Shown here one piece after another: positions 2 through 20,526 of a stretch of 22,134 bases of DNA. The notes under the pieces are model-generated. The model searched no databases and was not told where the DNA came from. It saw nothing but the letters and a program-made list of their open reading frames with translations. Location of the stretch: NCBI GenBank assembly GCA_005223085.1, contig NJBP01000039.1:1-22134 (forward strand). Direction: 5' to 3'. Every line of letters starts with the position of its first letter. Position 1 is the first letter of the stretch. The stretch comes from Candidatus Aerophobetes bacterium Ae_b3b. GTDB lineage: Bacteria; Aerophobota; Aerophobia; Aerophobales; AE-B3A. The translations under genes were made by a program, and so were the position numbers.

Positions 2-757
2 AAGCTAGCCTGTAAAGAGCTTAGGATTAATAAAATCGGCTCTTTTAAGCTGTTTCTTTCCCGTCCTATTGAAGGAGAAATAAAAACTGTAACTATTCGT
101 AAAACTCTTTCTGGGAGATGGTATGTAACTTTCTCCTGTGATAATGTTTTTTCTAAACCACTTCCTAAAACTGGTAAATTCATTGGAATTGATGTTGGCT
201 GCCTCTCTTTTTTAACTACTTCCACTGGTGAGAAGATTAACAATCCCAGATTTTTTCAAAGAGCACAAAATATTTTAACTAAAAGACAAAGAGCAGTTTC
301 CCATAGGAAAAAGGGTTCTAAACGACGAACCAAAGCGAAAATATTGCTTGCAAAGGCTCACGAGAAAGTCTTTAACCAAAGAAGAGATTTCCATTTTAAA
401 ATTGCTAGAAAAATTCTTTTGGCGTATGATACTATCTATATCGAGAATATGAATCATTTTAAAAGCTATAGGGTACTTAATCGGTCTATGAGAGATGTGG
501 CCTGGTTTAATTTCTTTAACATTCTTCTTTTTAAAGCGGAAGAAGCTGGAAAAGAAGTTGTTAAAGTGCCTGCCAAGAATACATCGCAGAAATGTTCTAA
601 TTGCCAAAAACTCGTTCCCAAGGAATTGTCTTGTCGTATCCATAATTGTCCTTTCTGTGGCCTCTCTATAGATCGAGATATTAATGCCGCCCGCAATATT
701 CTAAGGCTCGGGCAGAGCCTTCAGGGAGCAGGAGCATTGGTTCCTGCGATGAACTGA
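2..757 (+). CDS. tnpB: TnpB RNA-guided nuclease (IS605 OrfB), 5' partial
   Basis: The reading frame is open from base 2 to the TGA at 755-757, giving 251 visible residues; the N-terminus lies before the window. In order it shows the RuvC-I motif GIDVG (about residues 61-65), a basic K/R-rich stretch, RuvC-II YIENMN (about 145-150), a four-cysteine zinc finger (CSNC near 198-201 and CPFC near 217-220) and RuvC-III DRDINAARN. The catalytic acidic residues D, E and D are all present, so the nuclease part looks intact. TnpB proteins are RNA-guided DNA nucleases encoded by IS200/IS605 and IS607 elements. They use a guide RNA made from the element's right end and flank, cut matching sites, and help retain the element. 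Whether a TnpA partner is present cannot be seen. Confidence 0.93.
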   Translation, partial: KLACKELRINKIGSFKLFLSRPIEGEIKTVTIRKTLSGRWYVTFSCDNVFSKPLPKTGKFIGIDVGCLSFLTTSTGEKINNPRFFQRAQNILTKRQRAVSHRKKGSKRRTKAKILLAKAHEKVFNQRRDFHFKIARKILLAYDTIYIENMNHFKSYRVLNRSMRDVAWFNFFNILLFKAEEAGKEVVKVPAKNTSQKCSNCQKLVPKELSCRIHNCPFCGLSIDRDINAARNILRLGQSLQGAGALVPAMN

Positions 758-835: not shown

Positions 836-1936
836 TTGGTTAAGGTAATGCTTAAAGGTTTGAAGAAATACTTTGGCAGAGTGAAGGCTGTTGATGATGT
901 AGACCTGGAGATCGAGGCCGGTGAGTTCCTGGTATTGCTTGGTCCTTCTGGCTGCGGCAAGACGACGTTGTTGCGCTGCGTGTCGGGCTTGGAGAGAGTT
1001 ACTGCTGGCAAGGTACTTTTCGATGATGATGATATGACCTACCTTTCACCAAAGGAGAGGAACATATCAATGGTCTTTCAAAACTATGCAGTGTGGCCAC
1101 ACATGACCGTGCATAATAATATCGCTTTTCCTTTGAGGATTAAAAAATACTCCCGACATGAGATAGAGAAACGAGTCCTCTGGGCAGCTAAACTCTTAGG
1201 GATAGATAACCTCCTGGAGCGTTATCCGGCACAGCTTTCCGGTGGACAAAGACAACGAGTGGCAGTGGCAAGGGCGATTGTGATGGAGCCAAGGGTATTG
1301 TTGATGGACGAGCCGTTATCCAATCTCGATGCTCTCTTGCGTGTAAGAATGCGCAGCGAGGTAAAAAAATTACAGCGGAATCTTGAAGTTACCACCATTT
1401 ATGTCACCCATGATCAGGTAGAAGCGATGACCATGGGTGACCGGATCGCTGTGTTAGAACAAGGTAAGCTTCAACAGTTGGGCAGCTCTAGCAATATCTA
1501 TCACAATCCGGTTAATATGTTCGTAGCAGGATTCATCGGTTCACCACAGATGAATTTCATTGAGGTTGAGATCGCAAGGGAGAACAAAAGATTATACTTA
1601 AGAACAAAAGGTTTGATAATACCTTTATTGGATGAATTCAAGGCTAAAGTTTCCAAGCTTTCAGACAAGAGAAATTATGTCCTGGGCATAAGGCCGGAGC
1701 ATATTTACGTGGCTGGTCGAGCGCCAACCCATAAAGTAGCACCAACAAAGGGCAAAGTCTACTTTCTGGAGCTGTTGAGGTCAGACACTGTCGTCCATCT
1801 GGAAAAAGAGTTCGGGTTTCTTGTCGTTAAGGCATCAGGGGATTTAAAAGTAGAGGAGGATAGGGAGCTCGAGATCCTATTCGATCTGACCAGAATTCAT
1901 CTGTTTGATAAAGATACAGGTAAGGCAATATTATGA
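836..1936 (+). CDS. Sugar ABC transporter ATP-binding protein, MalK/UgpC/MsmX type
   Basis: This 366-residue protein is the cytoplasmic ATPase of a carbohydrate-uptake (CUT1) ABC transporter. Visible motifs: Walker A GPSGCGKT (36-43), Q-loop Q82, signature LSGGQ (134-138), Walker B VLLMDE (154-159), H-loop His192, then a TOBE-type C-terminal region containing GIRPEH. I chose the TTG start at 836 because AGAGGTGAGG lies a few bases upstream; an in-frame ATG at 848 is the alternative. No permease or binding protein is adjacent. The incomplete CUT1 transporter at 8058-11214 lacks an ATPase, and this protein could serve it, as MsmX-type ATPases serve several systems. It is followed after 32 bases by the mannosylglycerate synthase, so the two are probably co-transcribed. 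The transported substrate is unknown. Confidence 0.93.
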   Translation: MVKVMLKGLKKYFGRVKAVDDVDLEIEAGEFLVLLGPSGCGKTTLLRCVSGLERVTAGKVLFDDDDMTYLSPKERNISMVFQNYAVWPHMTVHNNIAFPLRIKKYSRHEIEKRVLWAAKLLGIDNLLERYPAQLSGGQRQRVAVARAIVMEPRVLLMDEPLSNLDALLRVRMRSEVKKLQRNLEVTTIYVTHDQVEAMTMGDRIAVLEQGKLQQLGSSSNIYHNPVNMFVAGFIGSPQMNFIEVEIARENKRLYLRTKGLIIPLLDEFKAKVSKLSDKRNYVLGIRPEHIYVAGRAPTHKVAPTKGKVYFLELLRSDTVVHLEKEFGFLVVKASGDLKVEEDRELEILFDLTRIHLFDKDTGKAIL

Positions 1937-1968: not shown

Positions 1969-3135
1969 ATGAAAAAAAGAAGTCTGCAAAGTATGGTCTG
2001 TTTTCCTTTTAAGGCCGAGAATGCTCAGGTTTTCCTCAAGAATATAAAGGAGGCTTTGGCTCATCCCAGAGTAGGAGAAGTTCTGGGTGTGGGTTACGAG
2101 AAAAATAACTGCTTTGAAGAGATAGAGGCTAAGCTCTCCGGGGTTGAAAGGAAGGGGAAGAAAATTCACCTCATGGTGCAGAAAAGATGGGGAAAGAAGC
2201 GTCCTGGTAAGGGAGATGGTATGAATACAGCTCTGGACTACTTTGTTAATCACACATCTTTCGATAGAATTCATTTTTACGATGCTGACATTGTCACCTT
2301 TAGCCGTCAATGGATTGAGAAAGGGGAGAAAAGACTTGAGGAGGATTATCAGGTAGTAAGATTTTTCTTTCCCAAGGTCTCCACTGATGGTATGATCACC
2401 TGGAATATCACTAGATGTGGCTTGGCTTATAACTGGCCCCATACTATTCTTCCCCTTATTGAACAGCCTCTGGGAGGAGAACTTATCCTTAAAAGGGAGA
2501 TGGCCGAAAGGTTAATTAAAGACCCCTGGGTAATGAACTATAGTGACTGGGGTATAGATACTGCCTATGCGCTGGCCTTCGCAAAATATCAAGCTCCCCT
2601 CTACGAAGCTTACATTCAGGAGGGGAAACTTCATAAGCTCTACGGCAGGCTTAGCGATCTTTATACCATGCTCGTAGAGTGCTTTGTCGTTATTAAGGAA
2701 AGTTCGGCAATGCCAATAAATACCGAAAGTACTCTTTATAAGAAGGATACGGTGGAAAAGATTCCTTCCTCTATCCAGGAAAAAACAGCCTTTGATGTCA
2801 AGGAGACCATTCCTTTACTAACGGTGAATTGGACCGAGGAGGAGATGGAGCTACTTAATTTTTTTCCTTCAAAGATAAAAGAAGGAATGAGGTCATGCCG
2901 AAATAACCTTGACCTTCATTTTATGGGTCCTCAGGCCTGGTATGAAGTATATGAAGTTTTACTAGAAAAATTCGACCAAAATAAAAAAGCCTGGCGAGAC
3001 CTCTTATTTCGTTTGTGGATAGCCAGAGTTCTCAATCACACATTCTACTATGCATCCAAAGGTTATGAGTACACTATGAAAAGTCTGGAAGATATGGTCG
3101 GTTATTTTGTCCAGAGAAGGCTCAAGGAGGGCTAA
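1969..3135 (+). CDS. mgs: Mannosylglycerate synthase (GT78, single-step type)
   Basis: The 388-residue product resembles Rhodothermus marinus mannosylglycerate synthase along its whole length. That enzyme joins GDP-mannose and D-glycerate to make 2-O-alpha-mannosylglycerate, a compatible solute for heat and salt stress. Shared landmarks are the N-terminal VCFPFK, the RPGKGDGMNTAL loop (79-89), the DAD metal motif (105-107), STDGMITW (138-145), IEQPLGGEL (164-172), SDWGID (192-197) and EGKLHKLYG with the metal-ligand type His222. The single-step route needs no separate phosphatase, and none is present. ATG 1969 has only a distant purine-rich stretch upstream. ATG 1993 (giving MVCFPFK) matches the Rhodothermus start better and is a real alternative. 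An AAGGAGG near its end serves the next gene. Sugar donor range cannot be judged; the family also accepts other GDP-sugars. Confidence 0.9.
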   Translation: MKKRSLQSMVCFPFKAENAQVFLKNIKEALAHPRVGEVLGVGYEKNNCFEEIEAKLSGVERKGKKIHLMVQKRWGKKRPGKGDGMNTALDYFVNHTSFDRIHFYDADIVTFSRQWIEKGEKRLEEDYQVVRFFFPKVSTDGMITWNITRCGLAYNWPHTILPLIEQPLGGELILKREMAERLIKDPWVMNYSDWGIDTAYALAFAKYQAPLYEAYIQEGKLHKLYGRLSDLYTMLVECFVVIKESSAMPINTESTLYKKDTVEKIPSSIQEKTAFDVKETIPLLTVNWTEEEMELLNFFPSKIKEGMRSCRNNLDLHFMGPQAWYEVYEVLLEKFDQNKKAWRDLLFRLWIARVLNHTFYYASKGYEYTMKSLEDMVGYFVQRRLKEG

Positions 3136-3138
3136 GAG

Positions 3139-4437
3139 ATGGAAAATGAAAGTAGTTTAGCAGAAGAGGCAAGGGATCAGATTGAAGAGATGGGGAAAGC
3201 GGACATTCTGGTGGGGATACCCAGTTTTAATAATGAAAAATCTATTGAACATGTAGTGAGAGCAGTTCAGTATGGTTTGGCTAAATACTTTCCTAAATTT
3301 AGATCGGTGGTCATGAACTCCGATGGTGGTTCAACCGATAAAACCAGGGAAATCGTTAAGGAGACCAGTATTTACCCTGATTTACATACCATTCTCATTG
3401 AACATCCAGTTCGACCAGCGAGGAGTCTTTCCACTCCCTATCATGGTATTCCCGGAAAAGGAAGTGCTTTCAAGGCTATCTTCGAAACAGCAAAGTTGCT
3501 GAAGGTAAGAGCCTGTGTGGTGGTCGATTCTGATGTAAGAAGCATTAATCCTGAATGGATTGAGCTTTTGGCCGGTCCGATCGTGATAAAAGGTTATGAT
3601 TATGTTTCTCCGCTTTACCTTCGTCATAAATACGATGCTACCATTACCAATTCCATTGTCTACCCTTTAACCAGAGCCCTTACTGGTTTAAGGGTGCGTC
3701 AACCCATAGGGGGAGATTTTGGATTCTCGGGCAAACTAGTTAAATCCTTCTTGGACAAGGATGTTTGGGGAACGGATGTGGCCCGTTATGGTATAGATAT
3801 CTGGATGACTGCTACCGCTATAAACGAGGGCTACAAGGTGTGTCAATCTTTCTTGGGAGCCAAAATACATGATGCCAAGGATCCCGGGAAAGATCTCGCT
3901 CCCATGTTTAAACAAGTCGTGGGCACTCTTTTTCACCTCATGTGTGATTATGAAAATCACTGGAAGCAGATCACCCGTGCAAAGCCCCCCGCTGTTTACG
4001 GTTTCCGTTCGGAAGCTTCGCCTGAGCCGGTAGCGCTAAACCGTAAGCTTTTGGTAGATAAATTTAGAAAAGGATTAATGGAGAATCGTGATTATTGGCT
4101 TACTTTTCTTCCACGCGAAAGGATAAGACAGCTAGAAAAAGTAGCCAGGCTTCCCTTCGATGGATTTAGTCTTTCTCAGACGCTTTGGATAAAAACGGTC
4201 TATGACTTTGCCGTTGCCTATCGTCAAAGAAAAGCTGCTCCACTTGAGGTGAGGGATCAACTCCTCGAGTCTCTGGTGCCTATTTATTTTGGAAGGACAG
4301 CTTCCTTTGCTATTGAGACCAGAGATATGCCGACCTACGAGGCCGAAGAGGTAATTGAACGCTTATGTGATAAGTTTGAAAAATTAAAGCCTTACCTCCT
4401 CCAGCGATGGGACTCTATTGTAAATAATGAGGGATAG
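3139..4437 (+). CDS. GT81-family glycosyltransferase, probable glucosylglycerate-type synthase
   Basis: The 432-residue protein has the fold signature of GT81 enzymes, which make glucosyl-3-phosphoglycerate or glucosylglycerate from NDP-glucose. Seen in order: VGIPSFNNEKSI (25-36), nucleotide-binding SDGGSTDKT (61-69), PGKGSAF (105-111), the DSD metal motif (130-132), RQPIGGDFGFS (187-197) and YGIDIWMT (217-224). The C-terminal 170 residues are longer than in the short mycobacterial GpgS type and are rich in charged helices. It starts 3 bases after mgs with AAGGAGG at 3124-3130, so the two are translated from one message. No glucosyl-3-phosphoglycerate phosphatase is near, leaving open whether the acceptor is glycerate or 3-phosphoglycerate. 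Together with mgs it could make two solutes or contribute to a mixed mannosyl-glucosyl-glycerate. Confidence 0.8.
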   Translation: MENESSLAEEARDQIEEMGKADILVGIPSFNNEKSIEHVVRAVQYGLAKYFPKFRSVVMNSDGGSTDKTREIVKETSIYPDLHTILIEHPVRPARSLSTPYHGIPGKGSAFKAIFETAKLLKVRACVVVDSDVRSINPEWIELLAGPIVIKGYDYVSPLYLRHKYDATITNSIVYPLTRALTGLRVRQPIGGDFGFSGKLVKSFLDKDVWGTDVARYGIDIWMTATAINEGYKVCQSFLGAKIHDAKDPGKDLAPMFKQVVGTLFHLMCDYENHWKQITRAKPPAVYGFRSEASPEPVALNRKLLVDKFRKGLMENRDYWLTFLPRERIRQLEKVARLPFDGFSLSQTLWIKTVYDFAVAYRQRKAAPLEVRDQLLESLVPIYFGRTASFAIETRDMPTYEAEEVIERLCDKFEKLKPYLLQRWDSIVNNEG

Positions 4438-8057: not shown

Positions 8058-9407
8058 ATGGTAGGTAAAAAATGCTCGAAGGGGTTAATGGGAGTTTTAG
8101 CTGGATCAGTGATTATGATGGGGATTGTTTCCGGTGCCTTTGCGGTGGAAGTGAGTGTTCCCAAGGGTTTCAAGTTCGGAACTTACACCCAGCAGCCGTG
8201 GGCCGGTAAGACTATTCATGTGGCTATGGTTGCAGAGCCTCGCTGTGATGCACTGAAAAAGCTGGCTCCCGAATTTGAGAAGCTGACCGGAATAAAGATT
8301 GTCTTTGATATTCTCGCCTACCCGACTCTACAGGAAAAGCAGATGGTGGCTCTTACTCAGGGTACCGGGGTCTATGATATAGTTCATGTTGATTGTGTGT
8401 GGGTTGGTCAGTATGCAGGTGAAGGATGGACAATCCCGCTGGAGGAATTTATTCTGCGCACAGATCATAATACCCTGGCTCTAGATGATTTTATCCCGGC
8501 GGTCGTATCAGAACAGGGAATGTGGGAAGATAGAATCTTTGGATTTCCATTTATTAATGCGGCATTTGGACTGCACTATCGAACCGACATTTTTGATAAA
8601 TATGGGATAGAAGTTCCTCAGACCTGGAAAGAGTTAAGGGAGACGGCTGAAAAACTTAATTTGAAGGAACCAGGAGTTTCCGGTATTACCTTTATGGGCA
8701 GAAGAGGGGTTCAACTCCAGTGCAGCTATGACAATATGCTCTGGTCCTTTGGCGGAGACTGGTATGATGAAAACTACCGCCCCACCATAAACAGCCCGGC
8801 TGCAGTGGATGCGCTAGAGTACTTCAAATCTCTTATTCCTTTCGCCCCTGCCGGAGTATTGACTTATGATTGGGATGAAACAGCTCGTTCCTTTGCCCAG
8901 GGGAAGGCAGCTATGGATCTTCAGTGGCATAATGCTGCCCCTACGGCCTCCGATCCTTCGAAATCGAAAATCGTGGGTAAGTTTGATTTTGCCGTGATTC
9001 CTGGAAAACTACAACCCGACGGGAGTATCAAAAGAACTCCTACCTTCGGGGGTTGGAGTCTGGAGATTCCTAAAGATTCCAAAAATAAGGAAGCTGCCTG
9101 GGAGTTTATGGTTTGGGCCACTTCACCAGAAATACAACCAAGACTGGCTTATGGTCAACCCGGGGATCGTTTCTCTTCCTTAGCAGACCCGAAATTACAG
9201 GAAAAATATGTTGGGTACCAAACACTGTTGGTTTCCCTCCCCATAGCTAAAGGTCGTCCCCGGATTGCTGCTTATTCGGAACTTGCAGATGCCTTAGAGG
9301 TAGGTCTATCTGAGGGTATGACTGGAGCTAAGAGCGCTAAAAAAGCGCTAGATGACGCGAACAACAAATTTGAGTTTATTCTCAAAAAGTGGGGGTATTT
9401 GAAGTAG
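8058..9407 (+). CDS. Extracellular solute-binding protein, family 1 (CUT1 sugar uptake)
   Basis: The 449-residue product begins with a typical Sec signal peptide: basic MVGKKCSKG, a hydrophobic core to about residue 25 and an AFA cleavage site near 29. There is no lipobox cysteine, so it should be a soluble periplasmic protein. The mature part reads as a MalE/UgpB-like binding protein, with PEFEKLTGIKIVFD (64-100 region), YDIVHVDCVWVGQYA, and FGGWSLEIPKDSKNKEAAWEF in separate conserved blocks. The start is fixed by an excellent AGGAGG 7 bases before the ATG. It heads a three-gene transport unit with two permeases. The ligand is unknown, but the neighbouring enzymes suggest a polyol, sugar acid or glycoside. 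Confidence 0.93.
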   Translation: MVGKKCSKGLMGVLAGSVIMMGIVSGAFAVEVSVPKGFKFGTYTQQPWAGKTIHVAMVAEPRCDALKKLAPEFEKLTGIKIVFDILAYPTLQEKQMVALTQGTGVYDIVHVDCVWVGQYAGEGWTIPLEEFILRTDHNTLALDDFIPAVVSEQGMWEDRIFGFPFINAAFGLHYRTDIFDKYGIEVPQTWKELRETAEKLNLKEPGVSGITFMGRRGVQLQCSYDNMLWSFGGDWYDENYRPTINSPAAVDALEYFKSLIPFAPAGVLTYDWDETARSFAQGKAAMDLQWHNAAPTASDPSKSKIVGKFDFAVIPGKLQPDGSIKRTPTFGGWSLEIPKDSKNKEAAWEFMVWATSPEIQPRLAYGQPGDRFSSLADPKLQEKYVGYQTLLVSLPIAKGRPRIAAYSELADALEVGLSEGMTGAKSAKKALDDANNKFEFILKKWGYLK

Positions 9408-9415
9408 TTTAAACT

Positions 9416-9444
9416 GGGGGGCTGAGCAGATTGCTTGGCCCCCC
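9416..9444 (+). promoter_or_regulatory. Intercistronic stem-loop between binding protein and permease
   Basis: A 12-bp stem pairs GGGGGGCTGAGC (9416-9427) with GCTTGGCCCCCC (9433-9444), including two G-T wobbles, across a 5-base loop. It starts 8 bases after the binding-protein stop. No T-run follows, so it is not a good intrinsic terminator. Such hairpins between binding protein and permease genes commonly protect the upstream message and lower permease expression. Confidence 0.7.
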
Positions 9445-9460
9445 GAAAAGGGAAAAATAA

Positions 9461-10384
9461 GTGGAACTGGGCCAGAGAGTGTGGCTTTTTTTTTGTTTGT
9501 TAAAACGTAAGTATATGTGGCTTTTTTTTCTTGCTCCTACAGTTGCAGTCCTTATCAGTATAGTTATATTTCCTCTCGTTTTTTCTCTCAGTCTCAGTTT
9601 TCACGACTGGAATATTATCAGAGCTGGGGGATGGAGCTGGACCGGGATTGGCAACTACCGGACAATTCTTTTTCAGGACTCCTACTTTCGTTCTTCCTTT
9701 AAGGTTACCCTTCTCTATTTAGCTGGTACTGTTCCTTTACAGTTTGGTTTGGGTCTTGTAGTTGCGCTTATACTGCATCGGATTACCAAAAAAATTATTG
9801 GATTTTTGCGAACCGCCTTAATTATTCCTACTACTATGACTCCGGTCGTAGTTGGAATGATATGGAGACTGATGTACAACCCGGATTTAGGTATGCTCAA
9901 TTATTTTCTCACCTTGTTTCGTTTCCCCCCCGTTAACTGGACCGGCATGCCAGGGACAGCTCTTCCCTCAGTAATGATGGCTGATATCTGGGAGTGGACC
10001 CCTTTTATGGCCTTGATACTGCTGGCCGGACTTCAATCTTTACCCCAGGAACCCTTTGAGGCCGGTCTTGTTGACGGAGCATCACCCTGGCAGACATTTC
10101 GTTATATTACCTTACCTCTTTTAAGTCCGGTCATGCTGGTGGCACTTCTTATTAGACTGATGGATTCTTTTAAGACTTTCGATTTGATCTTTGTTCTTAC
10201 CCAGGGAGGGCCGGGTATGAGCACTGAAATATTGAATTACTATACCTATCGCTATGGTTTCAAATTCTTTCACCTAGGATATGCCTCAGCTTTGTCGTGG
10301 CTATTGCTGGTAGTTGTGACCATAATCTCCATAATTTTAATCAGAATACTCCACTCCAGGGGAATATATGCCGAGAGAGCATAA
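9461..10384 (+). CDS. Sugar ABC transporter permease, MalF/UgpA type
   Basis: This 307-residue inner-membrane protein is one of the two pore subunits of the CUT1 transporter. It has about six hydrophobic spans, the first at roughly residues 19-45, and the cytoplasmic EAA loop that docks with the ATPase, EAGLVDGASPWQTFRYITLPL (about 197-217, read in two parts). The segment TQGGPGMSTEILNYY is typical of UgpA/MalF-like permeases. The GTG at 9461 has AAGGG about 8 bases upstream; an ATG at residue 19 is the alternative start. It follows the binding-protein gene after a strong stem-loop and overlaps the next permease by one base. Confidence 0.95.
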   Translation: MELGQRVWLFFCLLKRKYMWLFFLAPTVAVLISIVIFPLVFSLSLSFHDWNIIRAGGWSWTGIGNYRTILFQDSYFRSSFKVTLLYLAGTVPLQFGLGLVVALILHRITKKIIGFLRTALIIPTTMTPVVVGMIWRLMYNPDLGMLNYFLTLFRFPPVNWTGMPGTALPSVMMADIWEWTPFMALILLAGLQSLPQEPFEAGLVDGASPWQTFRYITLPLLSPVMLVALLIRLMDSFKTFDLIFVLTQGGPGMSTEILNYYTYRYGFKFFHLGYASALSWLLLVVVTIISIILIRILHSRGIYAERA

Positions 10385-11214
10385 TGAATGAAGTTGTTAG
10401 AGCAAAAGTAAAAAAGATAATTTTTCTGCTAATAGCGGCAGTTATCTTTGGTGTAATTCTTTTTCCTCCTGTGGTTTTATTCTTAACCTCTATTAAAACC
10501 GAATTAGATGCTCTTAGTTTTCCTCCCAAGTGGATCTTTAAGCCCACGCTGGAAAATTATACGGAGATATTTGAATTCTCTCCTTTTGCCAGGTATCTAC
10601 TAAACAGCTTCATAGTTGCTTCCCTAAACACAGGAGTGGTTCTTGTTCTGGGTTCCTTCGCTGCCTACAGTTTAGCCCGATTTAGGTTTAAGGGAGCCGA
10701 TGATATTGCTTTCTGGATACTTTCCGTAAGAATGATGCCTCCCGTAGCTGCCATTATTCCTATTTATATTATCATGAGAAATCTACGCTTGCTGGATACT
10801 CCCTGGAGTTTAGTGATAACTTACCTCACCTTTAATCTACCTTTTGCAGTCTGGATGATGAGAAGTTTTTTTCGGGAGATTCCCCGGGAAATTGAAGAGA
10901 GTGCTCTGGTAGATGGATGCTCCATCTTTCGTTCTTTTCGGAGTATAGCCCTACCTCTGGCGGCTCCAGGATTAGCAGCAACAGGAATACTTACTTTTAT
11001 TTTTTCCTGGAATGAGTTTTTATTTGCCTTAATTCTCACCGGGAGCAAAGCGGTAACTTTACCGGTGGGTATCACTGGTTATATGAAGGAAACCGGTATT
11101 AATTGGGGTTATATGACTGCAGGTGGAGCACTTGCCCTGATTCCGGTAATAGTATTTACAATTTTGGCCCAGAAGCATTTAGTAAAGGGTCTAACTATGG
11201 GGGCTCTAAAATAG
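10384..11214 (+). CDS. Sugar ABC transporter permease, MalG/UgpE type
   Basis: The 276-residue product is the second pore subunit. It has an N-terminal span (about 12-33), LTSIKTELDAL, the NSFIVASLNT and GSFAAYSLARF segments, and an EAA loop, EESALVDGCSIFRSFRSIALPL (about 189-210). The stop and start overlap as TAATG, so translation is coupled to the first permease and the ATG at 10384 is secure despite a longer open frame upstream. No ATPase gene follows; the MalK-type ATPase at 836-1936 or one elsewhere must energise the pair. Confidence 0.95.
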   Translation: MNEVVRAKVKKIIFLLIAAVIFGVILFPPVVLFLTSIKTELDALSFPPKWIFKPTLENYTEIFEFSPFARYLLNSFIVASLNTGVVLVLGSFAAYSLARFRFKGADDIAFWILSVRMMPPVAAIIPIYIIMRNLRLLDTPWSLVITYLTFNLPFAVWMMRSFFREIPREIEESALVDGCSIFRSFRSIALPLAAPGLAATGILTFIFSWNEFLFALILTGSKAVTLPVGITGYMKETGINWGYMTAGGALALIPVIVFTILAQKHLVKGLTMGALK

Positions 11215-11257
11215 CTTATTTCAAACGATTTTAGATAAAAAGGGGGAGGAAACTCAT

Positions 11258-12019
11258 ATGAAACTAGGGCGTAAATCGGCAGTTATTACCGGTGGCGCTA
11301 TGGGGATAGGGAAGGCTATTGCTCAGCTATTTTCCAGTGAAGGTTGTCGGGTGGTTATAGCGGATGTCAATGAGGAGAAAGGAGCTGAAAGTCGAGAGGA
11401 GATCGAAGAGCGGGGAGGAAGTAGTCTATTTATTAGATGTGATGTTGCCAGAGCTGATGAGGTAAGAAATATGGTTCAAAAGGCGGTTTCCGTTTATGGC
11501 AGCATTAACATTCTGGTGAATAATGCGGGAATCTGGAGACCGGGAAGGGTCACCGATCTTACGGAGGAAACCTGGGATCAGGTGTTAAATACAAATTTGA
11601 AGGGGAACTTTCTTGTCTCAAAGGAGATTATTCCCCATATGCAGAAAGACGGAGGGGGTTCAATAATAAATGTAGCCTCGGTGGCTGGATTAGTGGGTTC
11701 CAGAGAAGCATCTGCTTACAATGCCTCCAAGGGGGGTATTGTCAATTTAACCCGAGCTATGGCCTTAGATTTTGCCAAAGATAATATCAGAGTTAATTGT
11801 ATCTGCCCTGGATTAATAGAGTCTGCGCAGGGAGATATGGTAGTTGCTCATTATGCGCCTGGTAAAGATCCTAAAACTGCTATGACATCCTGGCAACCTA
11901 TAGCTCGAATTGGGATTCCGCAGGATGTTGCAAAAGCTGCTCTTTACCTTGCTTCTGATGAGTCCTCTTTCGCTACAGGATCGATTTTTGTAATAGATGG
12001 GGGATTAACGGCTGAATAA
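11258..12019 (+). CDS. Short-chain dehydrogenase/reductase (SDR)
   Basis: The 253-residue protein is a classical SDR oxidoreductase. It shows the dinucleotide motif TGGAMGIG (11-18), Asp36 at the end of the second strand (which favours NAD over NADP), NNAG (88-91), and the catalytic set Asn113, Ser141, Tyr154 and Lys158. The ending GSIFVIDGGLTAE is the usual FabG-like C-terminus. GGGAGGAAA precedes the ATG. It starts 43 bases after the second permease and is the first enzyme of the catabolic run. The substrate is probably a sugar, polyol or keto-acid intermediate; SDR sequences do not reveal which. Confidence 0.93.
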   Translation: MKLGRKSAVITGGAMGIGKAIAQLFSSEGCRVVIADVNEEKGAESREEIEERGGSSLFIRCDVARADEVRNMVQKAVSVYGSINILVNNAGIWRPGRVTDLTEETWDQVLNTNLKGNFLVSKEIIPHMQKDGGGSIINVASVAGLVGSREASAYNASKGGIVNLTRAMALDFAKDNIRVNCICPGLIESAQGDMVVAHYAPGKDPKTAMTSWQPIARIGIPQDVAKAALYLASDESSFATGSIFVIDGGLTAE

Positions 12020-12075
12020 GGATACTTTTATCTTCCGCTACTGCTAAAATTTTTGGCAAAGGTATGGGGTGAAAA

Positions 12076-12795
12076 TTGCAGCTAAATATTCGTGATTTTG
12101 CCAAGATGATAGAATTCAGTCTGGTAAGACCTGATGCAACAGAGAAGGATATAGAGCGGTTTTGTCACATTGTCAAGGAAAATAATTTTGCAACTGCCTG
12201 CGTTAATCCGGTAAATGTATCCCTTACAGCAGAGCTTCTTAAGGGAACAAATATAGATATATCAGCCTCTATTGGCTTCCCCTTTGGTTCCCACATTCCG
12301 GAGGTAAAGGCCCTTGAGGCTAAACGGGCCATCGAGATGGGAGCAACTCAGATAGACATGGTAATAAACATAGGTGCCTTAAAATCGGGAAAAAATGAAA
12401 TGGTGTTTAAGGACATAAAGGCAGTAGTGGATGTATCAGGTAATGCTCCGGTGAAAGTGATTCTGGAAAATGGGTTCTTAAATGATGAGGAAAAAGTAAG
12501 AGGATGCAGAATGGCTAGAGATGCAGGGGCGAGTTTTGTAAAAACATCAACAGGAGTTGAAAGTAAATATCTTCTCCAGAGAGGCTCTGAGTCTGTGGGA
12601 GCAAAAGTTAAAGATATTAAACTTATGAAGAAGGTAGCAGGAGAGAAAATGAGGGTTAAAGCATCAGGAAGGATATACACCCTTGATTTTGCCCTGGAGC
12701 TTATAAAGGCAGGGGCAGACAGAGTGGGAACCAGCAAGGGGCCTCAATTGATTCGGGAATTTAAAGAGAGATTTCGAGACTCTATTCAGAGATAG
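12076..12795 (+). CDS. deoC: DeoC-family class I aldolase, divergent
   Basis: The 239-residue protein belongs to the deoxyribose-phosphate aldolase family. The Schiff-base lysine is Lys156 in FVKTSTG, the helper Lys195 lies in RVKASG and the proton-relay Asp94 in QIDMVINIGALKSG. Several positions differ from the common form: the phosphate-loop GGIRT is GRIYT (198-202), the early IDHT is IEFS (12-15) and the segment after KTSTG is VESKYLLQRG instead of the usual glycine-rich FGTGG-like turn. These lie near the substrate, so the aldehyde or phosphate acceptor may not be deoxyribose 5-phosphate. TTG is the start, behind GGGGTGA. It sits between an SDR and an FGGY kinase, a plausible kinase-aldolase pair. 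Confidence 0.85.
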   Translation: MQLNIRDFAKMIEFSLVRPDATEKDIERFCHIVKENNFATACVNPVNVSLTAELLKGTNIDISASIGFPFGSHIPEVKALEAKRAIEMGATQIDMVINIGALKSGKNEMVFKDIKAVVDVSGNAPVKVILENGFLNDEEKVRGCRMARDAGASFVKTSTGVESKYLLQRGSESVGAKVKDIKLMKKVAGEKMRVKASGRIYTLDFALELIKAGADRVGTSKGPQLIREFKERFRDSIQR

Positions 12796-12821
12796 ATGGG
12801 AGTTTTTGAGGGAAGAACAAG

Positions 12822-14381
12822 TTGAAAGATAAGTTTTTTATCATAGGGGCCGATGTTGGTACTACTTCTGCCAAGGTTATAGTTTTTGAGGAAGAAGGAA
12901 ATCCAGTGGCTGAGGGGAGAGCCTCCTATCCTCTTCTTCGGCCTCAAACTGGCTGGGTTGAGCAGAAAGCAGAGTGGTGGTGGCAAGCCTTCCAGACAGC
13001 TACAAAAGAAGCTTTAAAGCAAGGGAAGATCAATAAAAACAAAATTGTGGCTATAGGCATCACTCACCAGAGAATCACCACTGTACCAGTGGATGAGACG
13101 ATGGAACCTGTTCGCAATGCCATTCTCTGGAATGATATGAGATGCACGAAACAAAATGAGTGGGCGAGAGAAAAAATAGGAGTAAAGAGGATCTACTCCC
13201 GTACGGGAAACTTCCCCAGTATCTGGACAGTTTACAAAGCCATGTGGCTCAAGAAGAATGAACCGGAGACCTACAGAAAAACTTATAAGTTCCTTCTTGT
13301 TCAGGATTACATAATCTATAAACTAACAGGAAGATTAGTTACTACCTCAAGTTCTGCCATCCAGACTGGCTGCTTGGATGTGACCTCTCCTACCAAGTGG
13401 GCTGAGGATATTCTTGATCTTTTTGACATTCCGGCTAGTCTCTGGGTAGACGGGATCCTTCCCGGAGGGGAGCTGGTGGGAAAGATCACCAAAAGGTCAT
13501 CAAGCCTTACAGGTCTTCCGCAGGGACTGCCCGTAGTGACCACCGCGGGGGATCAGCCCTGTGGAACATTAGGAGCTGGAGTTAACCAACAGGGGATGCT
13601 GGCTATAAATGGAGGAACCTCCTGTTCCTTGGAGGTTTATGTGAAGGAACTTAAACTGGATCCCTATTTAAACTACTTTATAGAGATCAGCCCCACTGGG
13701 GACTACCTTCTGGAGGATTCCATATGGAGTGGAGGCTCGGCTCTCATGAGCTGGTTTAAAGATAATTTTGCCAGAGAAGAGGTCAAAGAGGCTCAAAAAG
13801 AAGGAGAACATCTCTGGGATAAACTCTACAATCTGGCTACCCAAGCTCCTCCCGGTAACAAAGGACTCATGTTAATTCCCTATTATTCTGGTGCATCCTC
13901 TCCCTACAGGGATCTCATGGCAAGAGGGGTTATCTTCGGATTTCTTCTGGATCACGGCAAATCTCATCTCGTAAGAGCCATTCTGGAAGGACTTGCCTTC
14001 GAATCACGCCGTAAAAAAGAATTCATGGAAAAAGGTTCCGGGATTCCCATTACTAGGGTGAGAATGTACGGGGGATCAGCCAAAAGTCCTGTCTGGAATC
14101 AGATATTTGCCGATGTGTTAGGCGTTGAGGTCTGTACTTTGAAGACTCCGGAGACTACTGCTCTGGGAGCCGCAATATGCGCAGCCATCGGAGGCAAGGT
14201 ATATTCTAGTTTTCAGGAAGCAGTGAAGAAAATGGTTCATGTAGACCGAACTTTTTTACCGGATTTTGGGAAAAGAGAGATCTACGATAACCTTTATTCT
14301 CAGGTCTATAGCAAGTTCTATGATCGGGTGCAGGATCTCGTCCATACTGCCTCCGAAATAATCGAACAGCATAAAAAATAG
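12822..14381 (+). CDS. FGGY-family carbohydrate kinase, xylulokinase-like
   Basis: This 519-residue kinase transfers phosphate from ATP to a sugar or polyol. The N-terminal phosphate motif is GADVGTTSAKVIVFE (9-23), HQRITTV lies near 82-88, the catalytic base is Asp244 in AGDQPCGTLGAG (242-253), and INGGTSCSLE (262-271) and MYGGSAKSPVWNQIFADVLG form the second-domain ATP site. Length is normal for the family. TTG at 12822 is preceded by GAGGGAAG. FGGY specificity cannot be assigned by eye; candidates include ketoses, polyols and linear keto-sugar acids made upstream in the pathway. It lies 26 bases after deoC and is followed by the regulator gene. Confidence 0.93.
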   Translation: MKDKFFIIGADVGTTSAKVIVFEEEGNPVAEGRASYPLLRPQTGWVEQKAEWWWQAFQTATKEALKQGKINKNKIVAIGITHQRITTVPVDETMEPVRNAILWNDMRCTKQNEWAREKIGVKRIYSRTGNFPSIWTVYKAMWLKKNEPETYRKTYKFLLVQDYIIYKLTGRLVTTSSSAIQTGCLDVTSPTKWAEDILDLFDIPASLWVDGILPGGELVGKITKRSSSLTGLPQGLPVVTTAGDQPCGTLGAGVNQQGMLAINGGTSCSLEVYVKELKLDPYLNYFIEISPTGDYLLEDSIWSGGSALMSWFKDNFAREEVKEAQKEGEHLWDKLYNLATQAPPGNKGLMLIPYYSGASSPYRDLMARGVIFGFLLDHGKSHLVRAILEGLAFESRRKKEFMEKGSGIPITRVRMYGGSAKSPVWNQIFADVLGVEVCTLKTPETTALGAAICAAIGGKVYSSFQEAVKKMVHVDRTFLPDFGKREIYDNLYSQVYSKFYDRVQDLVHTASEIIEQHKK

Positions 14382-14439
14382 ACAAATTTGGAGGATTAAA
14401 TTAAAATATGTGATGAGACCTGTAGGAATCTGGTAGAAA

Positions 14440-15252
14440 GTGAGAAGCGACTTGTCTAAAAAAGAACCTACTTATCCTCTGAAGGCCTTGGATAAATCTT
14501 TAGCAATTCTTGAGATTTTGTCCCGGGAGAACTCTCCTTTGAGTATAGCTCAGCTTAGTGAGAGATTAGGCATCTATCCCAGTACCATCCACCGTATTCT
14601 GGACACTTTAAGATATTGGGGGTATGTAGAGCAGGACCCTGTCACCCAGAGGTACCAACTGGGTTTAAAGGTACTAGAATTGAGTACGGCTAAACTTCAG
14701 GGAATGGAGCTAGTAAAAGAGGCGGCTTCTTACCTTAAACAGCTACGGGAGCAGTCAAATGAGACTGTTCATTTGGCCGTCTTAGACGAGGGAGAGGTTC
14801 TTTATCTTGATAAGGAGGAATCGCCTCAGAGCATAAGGATGGTTTCTCAGGTGGGTAGACGTCTTCCTGCTCATTGCACCGGTCTAGGTAAGGTTCTCTT
14901 AGCTAACCTTGACGAAGAAGAACAAGAAAAGATTATAGAAGAAAAAGGACTTCCCCGTTTCACTGAAAGTACTATAACTGATAAAAAAAAGTTAAGAGAA
15001 GAACTGAGCAAAGCTAGACACCAGGGTTTTGCCGAGGATAGGGAAGAACACGAGCAAGATGTCCATTGTTTAGCTGCTCCTATAAAAGACCATAGCGGCA
15101 AAGTGATAGCGGCTATCAGTGTCTCCCTTCCTTCTTTCCGTATGAATGCTAGCAAAAGGAGGAAGTTAAAGGAGACTCTAATCCAAATGGGTGAGAATAT
15201 TTCCAAAAGATTGGGGTATAATAGGACTCGAGGAACTACTTCTATGTATTAG
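14440..15252 (+). CDS. IclR-family transcriptional regulator
   Basis: The 270-residue protein has an N-terminal winged helix-turn-helix (about 15-75: ALDKSLAILEIL, LSIAQLSERLG, STIHRILDTL, GYVEQ) and a C-terminal IclR effector domain (about 90-255), with RMVSQVGRRLPAHCTGLGK and GFAEDREEHEQDVHCLAAPI as family blocks. Such regulators bind palindromes near promoters and respond to small aromatic or sugar-acid ligands. It is probably the repressor or activator of this cluster and may recognise the palindrome at 7780-7794. The start is uncertain: GTG 14440 and TTG 14452 both lack a strong ribosome site, while GGAGG at about 14390 is followed by an ATG that runs straight into TGA (14408-14413). Confidence 0.93.
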   Translation: MRSDLSKKEPTYPLKALDKSLAILEILSRENSPLSIAQLSERLGIYPSTIHRILDTLRYWGYVEQDPVTQRYQLGLKVLELSTAKLQGMELVKEAASYLKQLREQSNETVHLAVLDEGEVLYLDKEESPQSIRMVSQVGRRLPAHCTGLGKVLLANLDEEEQEKIIEEKGLPRFTESTITDKKKLREELSKARHQGFAEDREEHEQDVHCLAAPIKDHSGKVIAAISVSLPSFRMNASKRRKLKETLIQMGENISKRLGYNRTRGTTSMY

Positions 15253-15262
15253 GGGGAAAACA

Positions 15263-16036
15263 TTGAATGAGAACAAGTTAAAAAGGCTTATCAAAGAGGG
15301 AGGAGTGGTGGTGGGGCCATTTATGAAGATAACAGATCCAGCAGTCATGGAAATCGCAGGTTATGCAGGGTTTAACTTCGTAATTATTGATACAGAGCAT
15401 GGGCCTGTCTCCATAGAGACAGCTCAAAATCTAGTGAGAGCAGCTACTTATGCAGAAATCAGCCCTATCATTAGGGTCAAAAATAATGACCCAGCTACCA
15501 TTCTAAGGGCATTAGATATTGGGGCAGAGGGTATCGAGGTTCCGCACATTAGTAGTAAAGAAGATGCTGTAAAGGCAGTACGGGCGACGAAGTTTGCTCC
15601 TGTTGGTGAACGAGGAGTCTGTCGTTTTGTAAGAGCTGCTCAATATTCTGCCTTAGATCGTTTTAAATATTTTGAAACCGCCAATAAGGAAACCATGGTT
15701 ATACTCCATATTGAAGGAGTGGAGGGGATAAATAACTTAGAAAGGATATTGTCAGTAAAGGGGGTAGATATTATCTTCATCGGGCCATACGATCTTTCTC
15801 AGTCGCTGGAATTACCAGGTCAAGTCAATCATCCGCTAGTAACTGAAAAAATGAACCATGTGATTTCATCTACCAGGAAAAAAGGAGTAGCTGTGGGGAC
15901 TTTTGTAGATGATGTAGAGACTGCTAGAAAGTGGATTAATCTGGGAGTCCAATATATAGGATTTTCCGTAGATGTAGGGATTTTCTATGAAGCCTGCAAA
16001 GACATAGTAGTGAAAATATTTCCAGAAAAAAAATAA
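15263..16036 (+). CDS. HpcH/HpaI family class II aldolase
   Basis: The 257-residue protein is a metal-dependent aldolase of the group that cleaves 2-keto-3-deoxy (or 4-hydroxy-2-keto) acids to pyruvate and an aldehyde. The expected residues are present at family positions: His46 in DTEHGP, Arg71 in IIRVKNNDP, metal ligands Glu151 in LHIEG and Asp177 in GPYDLSQSL. The TTG at 15263 was chosen because GGGGG lies 7 bases before it and it gives the normal length; the frame stays open upstream into the regulator gene. It follows the regulator by 10 bases. With DeoC, the cluster has two unrelated aldolases, which suggests two cleavage steps or two branches. Substrate unknown. Confidence 0.9.
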   Translation: MNENKLKRLIKEGGVVVGPFMKITDPAVMEIAGYAGFNFVIIDTEHGPVSIETAQNLVRAATYAEISPIIRVKNNDPATILRALDIGAEGIEVPHISSKEDAVKAVRATKFAPVGERGVCRFVRAAQYSALDRFKYFETANKETMVILHIEGVEGINNLERILSVKGVDIIFIGPYDLSQSLELPGQVNHPLVTEKMNHVISSTRKKGVAVGTFVDDVETARKWINLGVQYIGFSVDVGIFYEACKDIVVKIFPEKK

Positions 16037-16049
16037 GGTAAATGATAGA

Positions 16050-17102
16050 ATGAAGAGTAAAGGGATAATGATTGAAAAACCCGGCCAGCTTAAGATTATG
16101 GAAAGTGAAGTAGTAGAACCTCAGAAGGCCCAGGTTCTTTTAAAAGTGAATAACGTTGGTATTTGTGGTTCTGATATTCATCTTTATTATGGAAGTTATA
16201 CCGGACCTCATAGCTATCCTTTGTATTTCGGCCATGAATGGTCTGGAACAGTTATAAAAAAAGGTAAGAAAGTAAAAAGCCTGAACATAGGTGATACGGT
16301 AACAGGAGATTGTTCTATCTACTGCGGGAAATGCCAATATTGCCAGCAAGACAAGAACCTCTGTGAGAATATCCACAAGTTTGGCATAACTATAGGGGGT
16401 GCTTCGAGAGAGTATTTCCTGCAAGATGAGAAGTATCTTTATGAGCTGCCTGAAAATTTGCACCCAGGTTTAGCTTCCCTTGCAGAACCAGTGGCTGTTG
16501 CTGCTCATGCTCTAGAGAAGTTAGGCGAGATATCAGGCAAAAGAATCCTGGTGTTGGGTGCTGGAACTATTGGTCTTTCTGTTTTGATGGTCTTAAAAAA
16601 AATTCATAAGACTAAAAAAGTGGAGCTTTTCGATCTTATAGACTTTAGGCTAAAATTGGCAGAAGGTTCAGGAGCAAGGGTTCCTGACAATTTGGATCTT
16701 TTTAAAGGGGAAGTTAAGATCGGCGAAAAATATAAAGATTTCTATTCTGAGTTTGCCTACGATATTGTCATTGAAAGTAGCGGTTCTCCAAAGGCCTTTG
16801 ACAACGCCTTGAATCTGGTTAAACCTTTAGGGACTATCCTAAATATAGGCTTTATCCCGCCCTCAGAGATAAACTTTAGACTGGTTACTTTAAAAGCGAT
16901 TAGATTGATAGGGAGTATCGGGGGGACAGGAAATTTCCCCCAGGTTCTTCAATTGTTAAAAGATAATCAAGACTATGCCAGCTCACTTATTACTCATAGA
17001 TTTCCCTTCCAGGATGCCCAAGAGGCCTTTAAATTAAGTAAGGAGGCTGCTCAGGCTGTTAAAATTCAGTTGTTTTTCGAAGAAGAGTCAGAACCAAATT
17101 AA
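16050..17102 (+). CDS. Zinc-dependent alcohol/polyol dehydrogenase (MDR), sorbitol-dehydrogenase-like
   Basis: The 350-residue oxidoreductase has the medium-chain dehydrogenase layout. Catalytic zinc ligands are Cys39 in GICGSD and His62-Glu63 in GHEW, with Glu146 in LAEPVAV, as in sorbitol and threonine dehydrogenases. The structural zinc uses Cys92, Cys95, Cys98 and Cys105. The NAD site is VLGAGTIG (168-175). AAGGT precedes the ATG. It begins 13 bases after the aldolase. It probably oxidises a secondary alcohol of a polyol or sugar acid, or reduces the reverse. It is not closely alike to the second zinc dehydrogenase downstream, so the two probably act on different steps. Confidence 0.93.
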   Translation: MKSKGIMIEKPGQLKIMESEVVEPQKAQVLLKVNNVGICGSDIHLYYGSYTGPHSYPLYFGHEWSGTVIKKGKKVKSLNIGDTVTGDCSIYCGKCQYCQQDKNLCENIHKFGITIGGASREYFLQDEKYLYELPENLHPGLASLAEPVAVAAHALEKLGEISGKRILVLGAGTIGLSVLMVLKKIHKTKKVELFDLIDFRLKLAEGSGARVPDNLDLFKGEVKIGEKYKDFYSEFAYDIVIESSGSPKAFDNALNLVKPLGTILNIGFIPPSEINFRLVTLKAIRLIGSIGGTGNFPQVLQLLKDNQDYASSLITHRFPFQDAQEAFKLSKEAAQAVKIQLFFEEESEPN

Positions 17103-17175
17103 GTCTAGATTTATCTAAAAGACACCCGAAAGATGGAATGCACAAAAATAAATAAGTAGCTAAATTCTCAAAGCC

Positions 17176-18258
17176 GTGAATGAGGAGAAAGTGGATATTG
17201 CAAAAAAAATGAAGGCAGCGGTGTTATTCGGGTACAATGACTTGAGAGTGGTGGAAAAAGAAGTACCAACCCCAGAGCCTGGTGAGGTTTTGATCAAAGT
17301 GAAAGCCTGTGCTATTTGTGGTACCGACCCGCACATAATTTCTCAAGGTTGGCCGTCCAACCCACCCTTTGGGGAGTACATTCCGGGGCACGAATTTACC
17401 GGTGAGATTGTGAGGGTTGGAGAAACAGTGGACGAGTTTAAAGTGGGAGATAGAGTAGCGGTTGAACCACACAAAGGGTGTGGCCGATGTGTGAACTGTA
17501 TTAGAGGATTATATACCATCTGTCTAAATTACGGCAATATAGCAAAAGGACATCGGCATTATGGTTTCAGCACTAATGGAGGATACGCTGAATATGCAGT
17601 CAACCACATCAACACTCTTCATAGGATACCGGAAAAGCTCTCTTATGAGAATGCAACTCTAATTACTACTGCCGGAACTGTTATGTACGGGATAGAAAGA
17701 ATTGGGGGGATTAGGCCGGGGGAGACAGTGGTTGTCACCGGTCCAGGGCCGATTGGACTTATGGGAGTGCAGATTGTTAAAGCACTGGGGGCAGGTAGAG
17801 TCATTCTCACCGGAACTCGAGAGTCAAGACTGAAAGTAGGTAGAGAGGTTGGTGCTGATGAGACTATCAACATTCGTCAGGATGACCCAGTGAAAAAGAT
17901 AAACGAGCTTACCCACGAGCTTGGAGCAGATGTAGTGGTTGAGTGTTCAGGGAATCCTCGGGCCTCAGCCCAGGCTATAGATCTCATTAAAAAAGGGGGG
18001 AGGATTGCCCTGGTGGGCATCTATCAGGAGCCGGTGAGTCTTAATTTAAATAAAGTTGTTCAATGGAATTTATCCTTAGCTGGCGGAAAAGCTGAAGGGA
18101 TGTGGAATCTGGAAAGAGCAGTTCCCTTAATGGCAGATGGCAGAATCAAGGCAGGGCCTCTTATAACTCATATTTTTCCTCTGGACAAGATAAACGAAGC
18201 AATGGAGACCTTTGTTAAAAGAATAGGAGGGGCGATAAAGGTGGTCATTAAACCTTAA
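17176..18258 (+). CDS. Zinc-binding dehydrogenase (MDR), possible IolM-like inosose dehydrogenase
   Basis: The 360-residue protein has Cys48 in ICGTD, His72-Glu73 in GHEF, structural cysteines 102, 105, 108 and 116, and the nucleotide motif TGPGPIGLMG (188-197). The AEP glutamate found in the preceding dehydrogenase is absent here (LITTAGT). The start is uncertain: GTG 17176 has no ribosome site, GTG 17191 lies only 3 bases after GAGGAG, and ATG 17209 (giving MKAAVLFG) matches many homologues. It stands 11 bases before an IolN-like hydrolase. In Thermotoga maritima a zinc dehydrogenase (IolM) oxidises 2-keto-myo-inositol before IolN opens the ring, and this gene is the best candidate for that role. 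The assignment rests on context. Confidence 0.85.
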   Translation: MNEEKVDIAKKMKAAVLFGYNDLRVVEKEVPTPEPGEVLIKVKACAICGTDPHIISQGWPSNPPFGEYIPGHEFTGEIVRVGETVDEFKVGDRVAVEPHKGCGRCVNCIRGLYTICLNYGNIAKGHRHYGFSTNGGYAEYAVNHINTLHRIPEKLSYENATLITTAGTVMYGIERIGGIRPGETVVVTGPGPIGLMGVQIVKALGAGRVILTGTRESRLKVGREVGADETINIRQDDPVKKINELTHELGADVVVECSGNPRASAQAIDLIKKGGRIALVGIYQEPVSLNLNKVVQWNLSLAGGKAEGMWNLERAVPLMADGRIKAGPLITHIFPLDKINEAMETFVKRIGGAIKVVIKP

Positions 18259-18269
18259 GGAGGAGTAAA

Positions 18270-19388
18270 GTGTCTGGTCAAAACGAAAAAAGCAAGCTAT
18301 GGTTGACAACAGAAAATCCCGCTATCTTCTTCGAAAATACCGAAGTAGGCAGACTGAAGAAGAAGATCTGGGATGCATCGGAAGCCGAGATTGATGCGAT
18401 TCTGGCTGAATATGAGGTACCCTCACTTCCAGAGTTAGGTAAGCCTGGCAGTTACATTCAGACTACAGTTCGTCAGAAACTTATCGAAAACCGGAGCAAG
18501 AACGATATCGTTATTATACCTGTGGGATGTACGGAAAACCATGGTCGGCACACCATCTCTGGTCTGGATACCTTCATGGTGACCCAGATTGCTGAGGCAC
18601 TGCGTAGATATACGGCTAAAAAGGATCGGGCAGTTAATCTTGCCCTGCCCCCTCTCAATTATGGGGCTCATCCTTATCATCACCTGGGAATGCCCGGTAC
18701 GGTGATTATGCCGGATGAGGTGGTGCGGGAAACTCTCATCTATGTAATGCTTGGGCTATGGAACGATGGCTTTCGCAAACAGATTATAATTAATAACCAC
18801 GGGCAGCTCTGGGTATTGGAGACAGCTTTACATGAGTTTACTAAAAGATACCAGCTTCCGGGAATCTTCCAGGTGCTGGACTGGCATCGAGGAGTGAGGG
18901 AATTCTTTGGTTTAACTGGAAAAGCAGACAGCCATGAGACGCAGTTTGTCCATGCGGATGAGTCGGAGACCTCGGTGGCCCTTTTAATGTTTCCGGAAGG
19001 CACGGTTGAAATGAGCCTTGCTCAGGACACTGAAGGAGAAGGATTTCTTCCGGATGGTCATTTTGATAAGTCGGTGGATCCATTTCGTCGACCTCACCGC
19101 TGGTCTGAAGGTGAAGGCCACATGGCCATCGAAATAGCCGCAACGCCGGAAGGGACGGTGGGAAAACCAAGCTTAGCCAGTGCCAGAAAGGCGAAGCGGC
19201 CTATTGCGGCTATCCTCAGGTACTTGACCTTGGTTATTGATCAGATCCTGGAGGTCTTTCCACCTGGTAAAGTTCCGCCAGTGGGTAAGGTGACCTTGCG
19301 GGATGCTTCGGAGATGGAGCCTTATCTGAAAGAGCCTCAGAGTAAGGGTTGGAAATCAGTCTACAGATTGCCAAGGATTGGGTTCTAG
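18270..19388 (+). CDS. iolN: Creatininase-family metal hydrolase, IolN-like (3-dehydro-scyllo-inosose hydrolase)
   Basis: The 372-residue protein contains a creatininase core after an N-terminal extension of about 65 residues. Metal-ligand positions of the family are seen: Glu89 and His91 in GCTENHGRH, Asp100 in SGLDTF, His177 in INNHGQ and Glu231 in HADESETS. It is much longer than creatinine amidohydrolase (about 250), and lies between zinc and Gfo/Idh dehydrogenases, the arrangement of the Thermotoga inositol genes. There IolN hydrolyses the doubly oxidised inositol ring to 5-keto-L-gluconate. A strong AAGGAGGAG fixes the GTG start. Another lactam or lactone hydrolase activity cannot be excluded; the assignment is by length, motif and neighbours. 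Confidence 0.72.
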   Translation: MSGQNEKSKLWLTTENPAIFFENTEVGRLKKKIWDASEAEIDAILAEYEVPSLPELGKPGSYIQTTVRQKLIENRSKNDIVIIPVGCTENHGRHTISGLDTFMVTQIAEALRRYTAKKDRAVNLALPPLNYGAHPYHHLGMPGTVIMPDEVVRETLIYVMLGLWNDGFRKQIIINNHGQLWVLETALHEFTKRYQLPGIFQVLDWHRGVREFFGLTGKADSHETQFVHADESETSVALLMFPEGTVEMSLAQDTEGEGFLPDGHFDKSVDPFRRPHRWSEGEGHMAIEIAATPEGTVGKPSLASARKAKRPIAAILRYLTLVIDQILEVFPPGKVPPVGKVTLRDASEMEPYLKEPQSKGWKSVYRLPRIGF

Positions 19389-19472
19389 CTCGCAAAACAG
19401 TTGCAAAACCCCATTTTAAGATCAAGAGAGGATGGATGAGGTTATAATACAAGAGCTTTTTGGAGGAAACGG

Positions 19473-20474: not shown

Positions 20475-20526
20475 TCTTGGATAGAGAGATCGAAGCTATT
20501 GAAAAGGTAGGTACCGGAAGAACAGG

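Follow-up and report, generated by a model that had tools for sequence, protein, structure and literature searches.

The mannosylglycerate synthases (MGS) of family GT78 are enzymes of the one-step type, taking D-glycerate itself as acceptor and needing no phosphatase. The glucosylglycerate synthases (Ggs, EC 2.4.1.268) known from Persephonella marina and from Petrotoga mobilis are presumed here to belong to GT81, as is the GT81-like enzyme considered below, and a gpgS-gpgP-ggs operon was reportedly found in P. marina by Fernandes in 2007. A two-step route to mannosylglycerate, through MPGS and MPGP, has also been described (PMC8490865).

Organization of the locus

The window, the whole stretch of 22,134 nucleotides that was analysed, is contig C24 of a draft assembly of 2.04 Mb in 86 contigs, 88.6% complete; the gene inventory given for this genome rests on targeted searches of the assembly at that level of completeness. 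Two complete ORFs on the plus strand are separated by three bases (TAA GAG ATG; Table 1), in agreement with the initial annotation, which described two glycosyltransferases of different families at this spacing. The Shine-Dalgarno sequence of the second, GT81-like gene lies within mgs and this suggests, but does not prove, that both are read from one message. The short transcription unit would encode two single-step, retaining GT-A sugar-glycerate synthases.

Table 1. Positions of the paired genes, their main motifs and the genes upstream, in window coordinates.
Feature	Position	Strand	Basis or remark
TnpB-type (IS605/IS200) gene	2-757		Cut by contig end; just upstream of UgpC and mgs
UgpC/MalK-type ABC ATPase	836-1936	+	32 bp upstream of mgs
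Mannosylglycerate synthase (GT78), mgs, 388 aa	1969-3135	+	Pfam, PDB 2bo4
MGS DxD metal/nucleotide motif, D105-A-D107 (R. marinus D100-A-D102)	2281-2289	+	Residue mapping
MGS glycerate-binding acceptor loop DGMITW, residues 140-145 (R. marinus DAMITW)	2386-2403	+	
Shine-Dalgarno sequence AAGGAGGG	3124-3131	+	In mgs 3' end, 7 nt before GT81-like ATG
GT81-like glycosyltransferase, predicted MGS fold, 432 aa	3139-4437	+	Profiles, predicted structure, acceptor loop
DSD motif of GT81-like enzyme, D130-D132	3526-3534	+	Alignment
Acceptor loop of GT81-like enzyme DATITN, residues 166-171, MGS type, without arginine	3634-3651	+	Alignment

The UgpC/MalK-type ATPase possibly opens the mgs message and stands outside the sugar-glycerate pathway. 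It might serve a sugar ABC importer and catabolic cluster at 8058-21543 of the window, which comprises a binding protein, two permeases, an FGGY kinase, aldolases, an IclR regulator and dehydrogenases and in which no ATPase gene is seen. The TnpB-type gene may be a sign that this part of the window has been mobile.

The mannosylglycerate synthase

The product of the first ORF matches the Pfam families MGS_GT (4.6e-89) and MGS_C (9.5e-30), both far above the curated cut-offs, and PDB entry 2bo4 with an E-value of 9e-112. It shares 46% sequence identity with Rhodothermus marinus MGS, and the residues Lys9, Glu11, Gln66, Lys76, Asp100, Asp102, Asp135, Met137-Ile138-Thr139, Leu163, Asp192, His217 and Tyr220 of that enzyme are all identical. 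Two positions differ, Arg131 and Arg218 of R. marinus MGS both being lysine here; the change at Arg131 is conservative. On this sequence evidence the assignment as a mannosylglycerate synthase is beyond doubt. The enzyme would transfer mannose from GDP-mannose to D-glycerate, giving mannosylglycerate.

Family and fold of the GT81-like enzyme

The second enzyme is less readily placed. Single-sequence comparisons give weak matches, to the GpgS model PRK13915 (1.1e-10 and 41 bits, for a cut-off of 262) and to PDB entry 7p5l (1e-4). An alignment of 15 family members finds the GpgS crystal structures at 1.4e-13 and MGS at 1.4e-10, and profile-profile comparison of the family gives 2e-12 for actinobacterial-type GpgS, 1.3e-8 for MGS and 5e-6 for archaeal-type GpgS. 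Because of these scores to both GpgS and MGS, the enzyme lies by sequence between GT81 and GT78.

The structural relationship is clearer than that of the sequence. An AlphaFold model, made with the family alignment and of mean pLDDT 90, superposes on MGS with a Z score of 35.4 over approximately 360 residues, the C-terminal helical domain included, and on GpgS with a Z score of 21.7 over approximately 227 residues, little beyond the GT-A domain. Foldseek likewise gives 1e-16 for MGS against 8e-10 for GpgS. The enzyme is thus predicted to be MGS-like from end to end.

In a tree of 49 sequences the protein groups with the other Aerophobetes copies, and when it was used as query in a scan of genome contigs only two loci were returned. 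Taking more than 300 bits as strong membership, the family is present in 42 of the 386 genomes sampled; none of the members tested passes a curated specific model. In three genomes of one family the GT81-like domain occurs in fusion proteins of 735-768 residues (loci L044, L112 and L113), and in the first of these (L044:7435-9639) a GT2-like glycosyltransferase domain recognised by Pfam precedes it.

Acceptor site and substrates

Alignment of the acceptor loop gives D[GA]TI[TS][NT] in 37/37 members of the GT81-like family and D[AG]MITW in 3/3 MGS. The pattern GR[VAG][TV], carried by 12/12 phosphoglycerate-type enzymes (seven archaeal-type and three actinobacterial-type, with Rubrobacter xylanophilus MpgS and M. 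hassiacum GpgS), is found in 0/37 of the GT81-like relatives; the enzymes compared are related to each other and these counts are hence not independent observations. The loop arginine, which in later GpgS structures reportedly contacts the phosphate, is missing from the GT81-like family as it is from MGS. In the GpgS and MGS crystal structures the acceptor carboxylate is held by the main chain of Val186 or Ile138 and the side chain of Thr187 or Thr139, respectively, and the position of GpgS Glu232 is aspartate in MGS (PMC2581804). The GT81-like enzyme has Asp220 at the latter position.

The loop pattern makes free glycerate, or some other acceptor without a phosphate, a better candidate than 3-phosphoglycerate, and homology to MGS would indirectly make the acceptor site one of the free-glycerate type. 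Against assignment as a GpgS using 3-phosphoglycerate stand the score, which falls below the GpgS cut-off, and the lack of GR[VAG][TV].

None of the features tested predicts the donor of the GT81-like enzyme. The genome encodes GalU (UTP-glucose-1-phosphate uridylyltransferase) and a ManC-like mannose-1-phosphate guanylyltransferase; among the nucleotidyltransferases of the 88.6% complete assembly no GlgC-type ADP-glucose enzyme was recognised. The motif PIGGD, as opposed to PLGGE or PLSGE, was considered as a marker distinguishing glucose from mannose and discarded, since the glucose-using M. hassiacum GpgS also carries PLGGE. Glycine at the Ser81 position is a weak sign of wider nucleotide use. 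With moderate confidence, the GT81-like enzyme is a candidate one-step glucosylglycerate synthase of the Ggs type, which would transfer glucose from NDP-glucose to D-glycerate, giving glucosylglycerate. We infer the substrates of the two enzymes, their co-expression and an osmo- or thermoprotectant role for both products.

Is a phosphatase required?

The initial annotation had noted the absence of a phosphatase gene. This stands for the window, where no sugar-glycerate phosphatase gene was found, but not for the genome, in which a GpgS-type gene on contig C61 (C61:35132-36696, L002:1366-2930) is directly followed by one for a histidine phosphatase. The GpgS-type product scores 383.6 bits, above the model cut-off of 262, and matches PDB entry 3f1y at 6e-66. 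The histidine phosphatase is most similar to phosphoserine phosphatase (1e-28) and matches mycobacterial glucosyl-3-phosphoglycerate phosphatase at 2e-16. Targeted searches of the 88.6% complete genome found neither an MPGP-type HAD phosphatase nor a MOFRL-type glycerate kinase.

On these similarities the C61 pair likely gives the organism another, phosphorylating way to make glucosylglycerate. Genes for gpgS and a histidine phosphatase also adjoin the GT81-like gene in two other genomes (G109 and G376, loci L096 and L107), and therefore a conventional two-step route may run beside the one-step enzymes, an arrangement also reported for Persephonella. A gpgP-like phosphatase elsewhere in the genome had been named as evidence against the original proposal; the C61 pair goes part of the way, the substrate of its phosphatase being putative. 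The further claim, that the paired enzymes form a route without a phosphatase, gains from the acceptor-loop residues and the whole fold, which point to free glycerate. The missing phosphatase is not odd because most likely both paired enzymes are phosphatase-independent.

Genomic context and history of the pair

Relatives of the GT81-like gene adjoin gpgS, of either archaeal type (NF040724) or actinobacterial type (PRK13915), in about ten loci. At several of them there is also a HAD phosphatase of MPGP/GpgP type, a channel of MscS type or trehalose genes (OtsAB/TreT); at one locus a glycerate kinase gene directly follows the GT81-like gene. The neighbourhood of these relatives is a compatible-solute setting which recalls the Persephonella operon and is in keeping with a Ggs-type reading of the enzyme. 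The gpgS/gpgP neighbourhood is absent from the window and from the other Aerophobetes loci. In two larger clusters (L041:3076-14257 and L043:4507-11291) genes for GpgS and the GT81-like enzyme lie with those of two GT-B-like transferases that Pfam barely recognises, the former also with trehalose genes and a glycerate kinase, the latter also with an HAD hydrolase; they possibly make a larger sugar-glycerate product.

MGS proper is present in only two of the 386 genomes sampled, the remaining matches of the MGS search being GT81-like proteins. Among 17 Aerophobetes genomes the synthase is intact in one and the GT81-like gene is present in eight; all 16 others lack an intact synthase, including the seven others that have the GT81-like gene. 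Within the 386 genomes the adjacent pair occurs in the window genome only. In the other MGS carrier, G017, the two genes are on different contigs and this co-occurrence is not significant, the probability of one other MGS genome doing so by chance being approximately 0.11 with the window genome taken as chosen beforehand. Plasmids gave no MGS, and GT81 matches that were weak and partial only; no MGS was found in viral contigs. One genome of the phylum of G017 and three of that of G229 were searched for MGS, too few to inform.

Two relatives bear on the history of the pair. The sister species G001 has an intact GT81-like gene, 86% identical to the window copy, and directly upstream only the last 40 codons of mgs (L033:2029-2148), behind genes that read, on inspection of the sequence, as pgk, tpiA and secG. 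This stub would represent loss of mgs caught in a close relative, provided that the contig is correctly assembled. In G009 the order NAD kinase, DUF212, xseBA is kept downstream of the GT81-like gene with other genes interspersed, and upstream frr takes the place of mgs. The stub, the G009 gene order and the separate contigs of G017 suggest that mgs came to lie beside an older gene and that it can disappear while this gene remains; the addition next to a Ggs-type gene probably occurred within this genus, and the pairing is probably not old.

A survey of genomes for the same pair, proposed earlier, thus finds it not conserved, with one pair, one stub and one case on separate contigs. Of the idea that both sugars are made from one message, likely co-transcription is supported but a maintained functional unit is not, given that the GT81-like gene is older, usually lacks an MGS partner and has only a stub beside it in G001.

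Function of the pair

The reading we favour, at marginally better than an even chance, is that two phosphatase-independent synthases encoded in one short unit make mannosylglycerate and glucosylglycerate, and such parallel synthesis is plausible. However, the C61 GpgS and phosphatase would already make glucosylglycerate, so the GT81-like enzyme may have another job. An alternative is that one enzyme makes glucosylglycerate or mannosylglycerate and its partner extends this to mannosyl-glucosyl-glycerate (MGG), with no phosphorylated intermediate on the way. MGG does occur as a solute, in Petrotoga and Rhodopirellula (PMC3694870). Adjacency of the genes suits a two-step path, and the C61 enzymes offer another source of glucosylglycerate, but the glycerate loop of the MGS, nearly that of R. 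marinus, gives no hint of a larger acceptor, and the GT81-like gene is mostly found without MGS. Known MGG synthases reportedly belong to another, GT4-like family. The mixed product, which the initial annotation had raised as an alternative, gains no specific support. We judge sequential action unlikely, and doubt somewhat more a phosphatase-free two-gene route to MGG in which the mgs product adds mannose to what the GT81-like enzyme has made.

The frequent position of relatives directly beside gpgS and gpgP, already makers of glucosylglycerate, and sometimes beside GT-B-like transferases would suit an enzyme working downstream of GpgS/GpgP, which extends or modifies glucosylglycerate rather than making it, for example into diglucosylglycerate or as the first step towards a longer glucan. 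The acceptor loop and full-length fold match instead those of MGS, a free-glycerate enzyme, and a one-step synthase is reportedly part of the Persephonella operon, in which these three functions are likewise combined; we consider extension improbable. Lowest we place mere proximity, with mgs having landed upstream of an older, unconnected gene and only the promoter common to both. The upstream side is indeed variable (frr in G009, the pgk-tpiA-secG-like genes and stub in G001, and in the window a UgpC ATPase with TnpB), whereas G009 keeps the genes that follow, and the pair is seen nowhere else among the 386 genomes. Yet both enzymes are of the sugar-glycerate branch, the Shine-Dalgarno sequence of one gene lies inside the other, and the second MGS genome also has a GT81-like gene, albeit with the chance level given above.

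Comparison with known systems

Both kinds of enzyme are known; the arrangement is new and apparently local. If parallel synthesis is right, a rare mannosylglycerate synthase is placed in Candidatus Aerophobetes and a single transcript could provide two sugars that protect against salt. The contrast of D[GA]TIT with GR[VAG][TV] would then provide a testable rule to separate phosphatase-independent from phosphatase-dependent enzymes, of use across a subfamily with the distribution noted above.

The closest described enzyme is R. marinus MGS (GT78; PDB codes 2bo4, 2y4j-m). The mgs product is alike over its full length, with the same DxD motif, Lys76, Asp192, His217, Tyr220 and loop. The GT81-like enzyme has the same two-domain fold, as modelled, and the same loop pattern but is only about 15% identical in structural alignment, and its donor-sugar motif reads PIGGD where that of MGS reads PLGGE. 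With GpgS (GT81; PDB codes 3e25, 7p5l) it shares the GT-A core, the DxD motif, the GKG lysine and the metal-site histidine, but it lacks the GR[VAG][TV] loop and has an MGS-like C-terminal helical domain; it is contig C61 that carries the true gene of GpgS type. The likeness to Ggs of P. marina and P. mobilis is by description, in that relatives of the GT81-like gene adjoin gpgS and gpgP, whereas the neighbour in the window is MGS. The mannosylglucosylglycerate pathways of P. mobilis, reportedly described by Fernandes in 2010, are said to pair a glucosylglycerate-type synthase with a mannosyltransferase, like the window pair, although that mannosyltransferase (MggA/MggS) is reportedly not a GT78 enzyme, unlike the mgs product described here.
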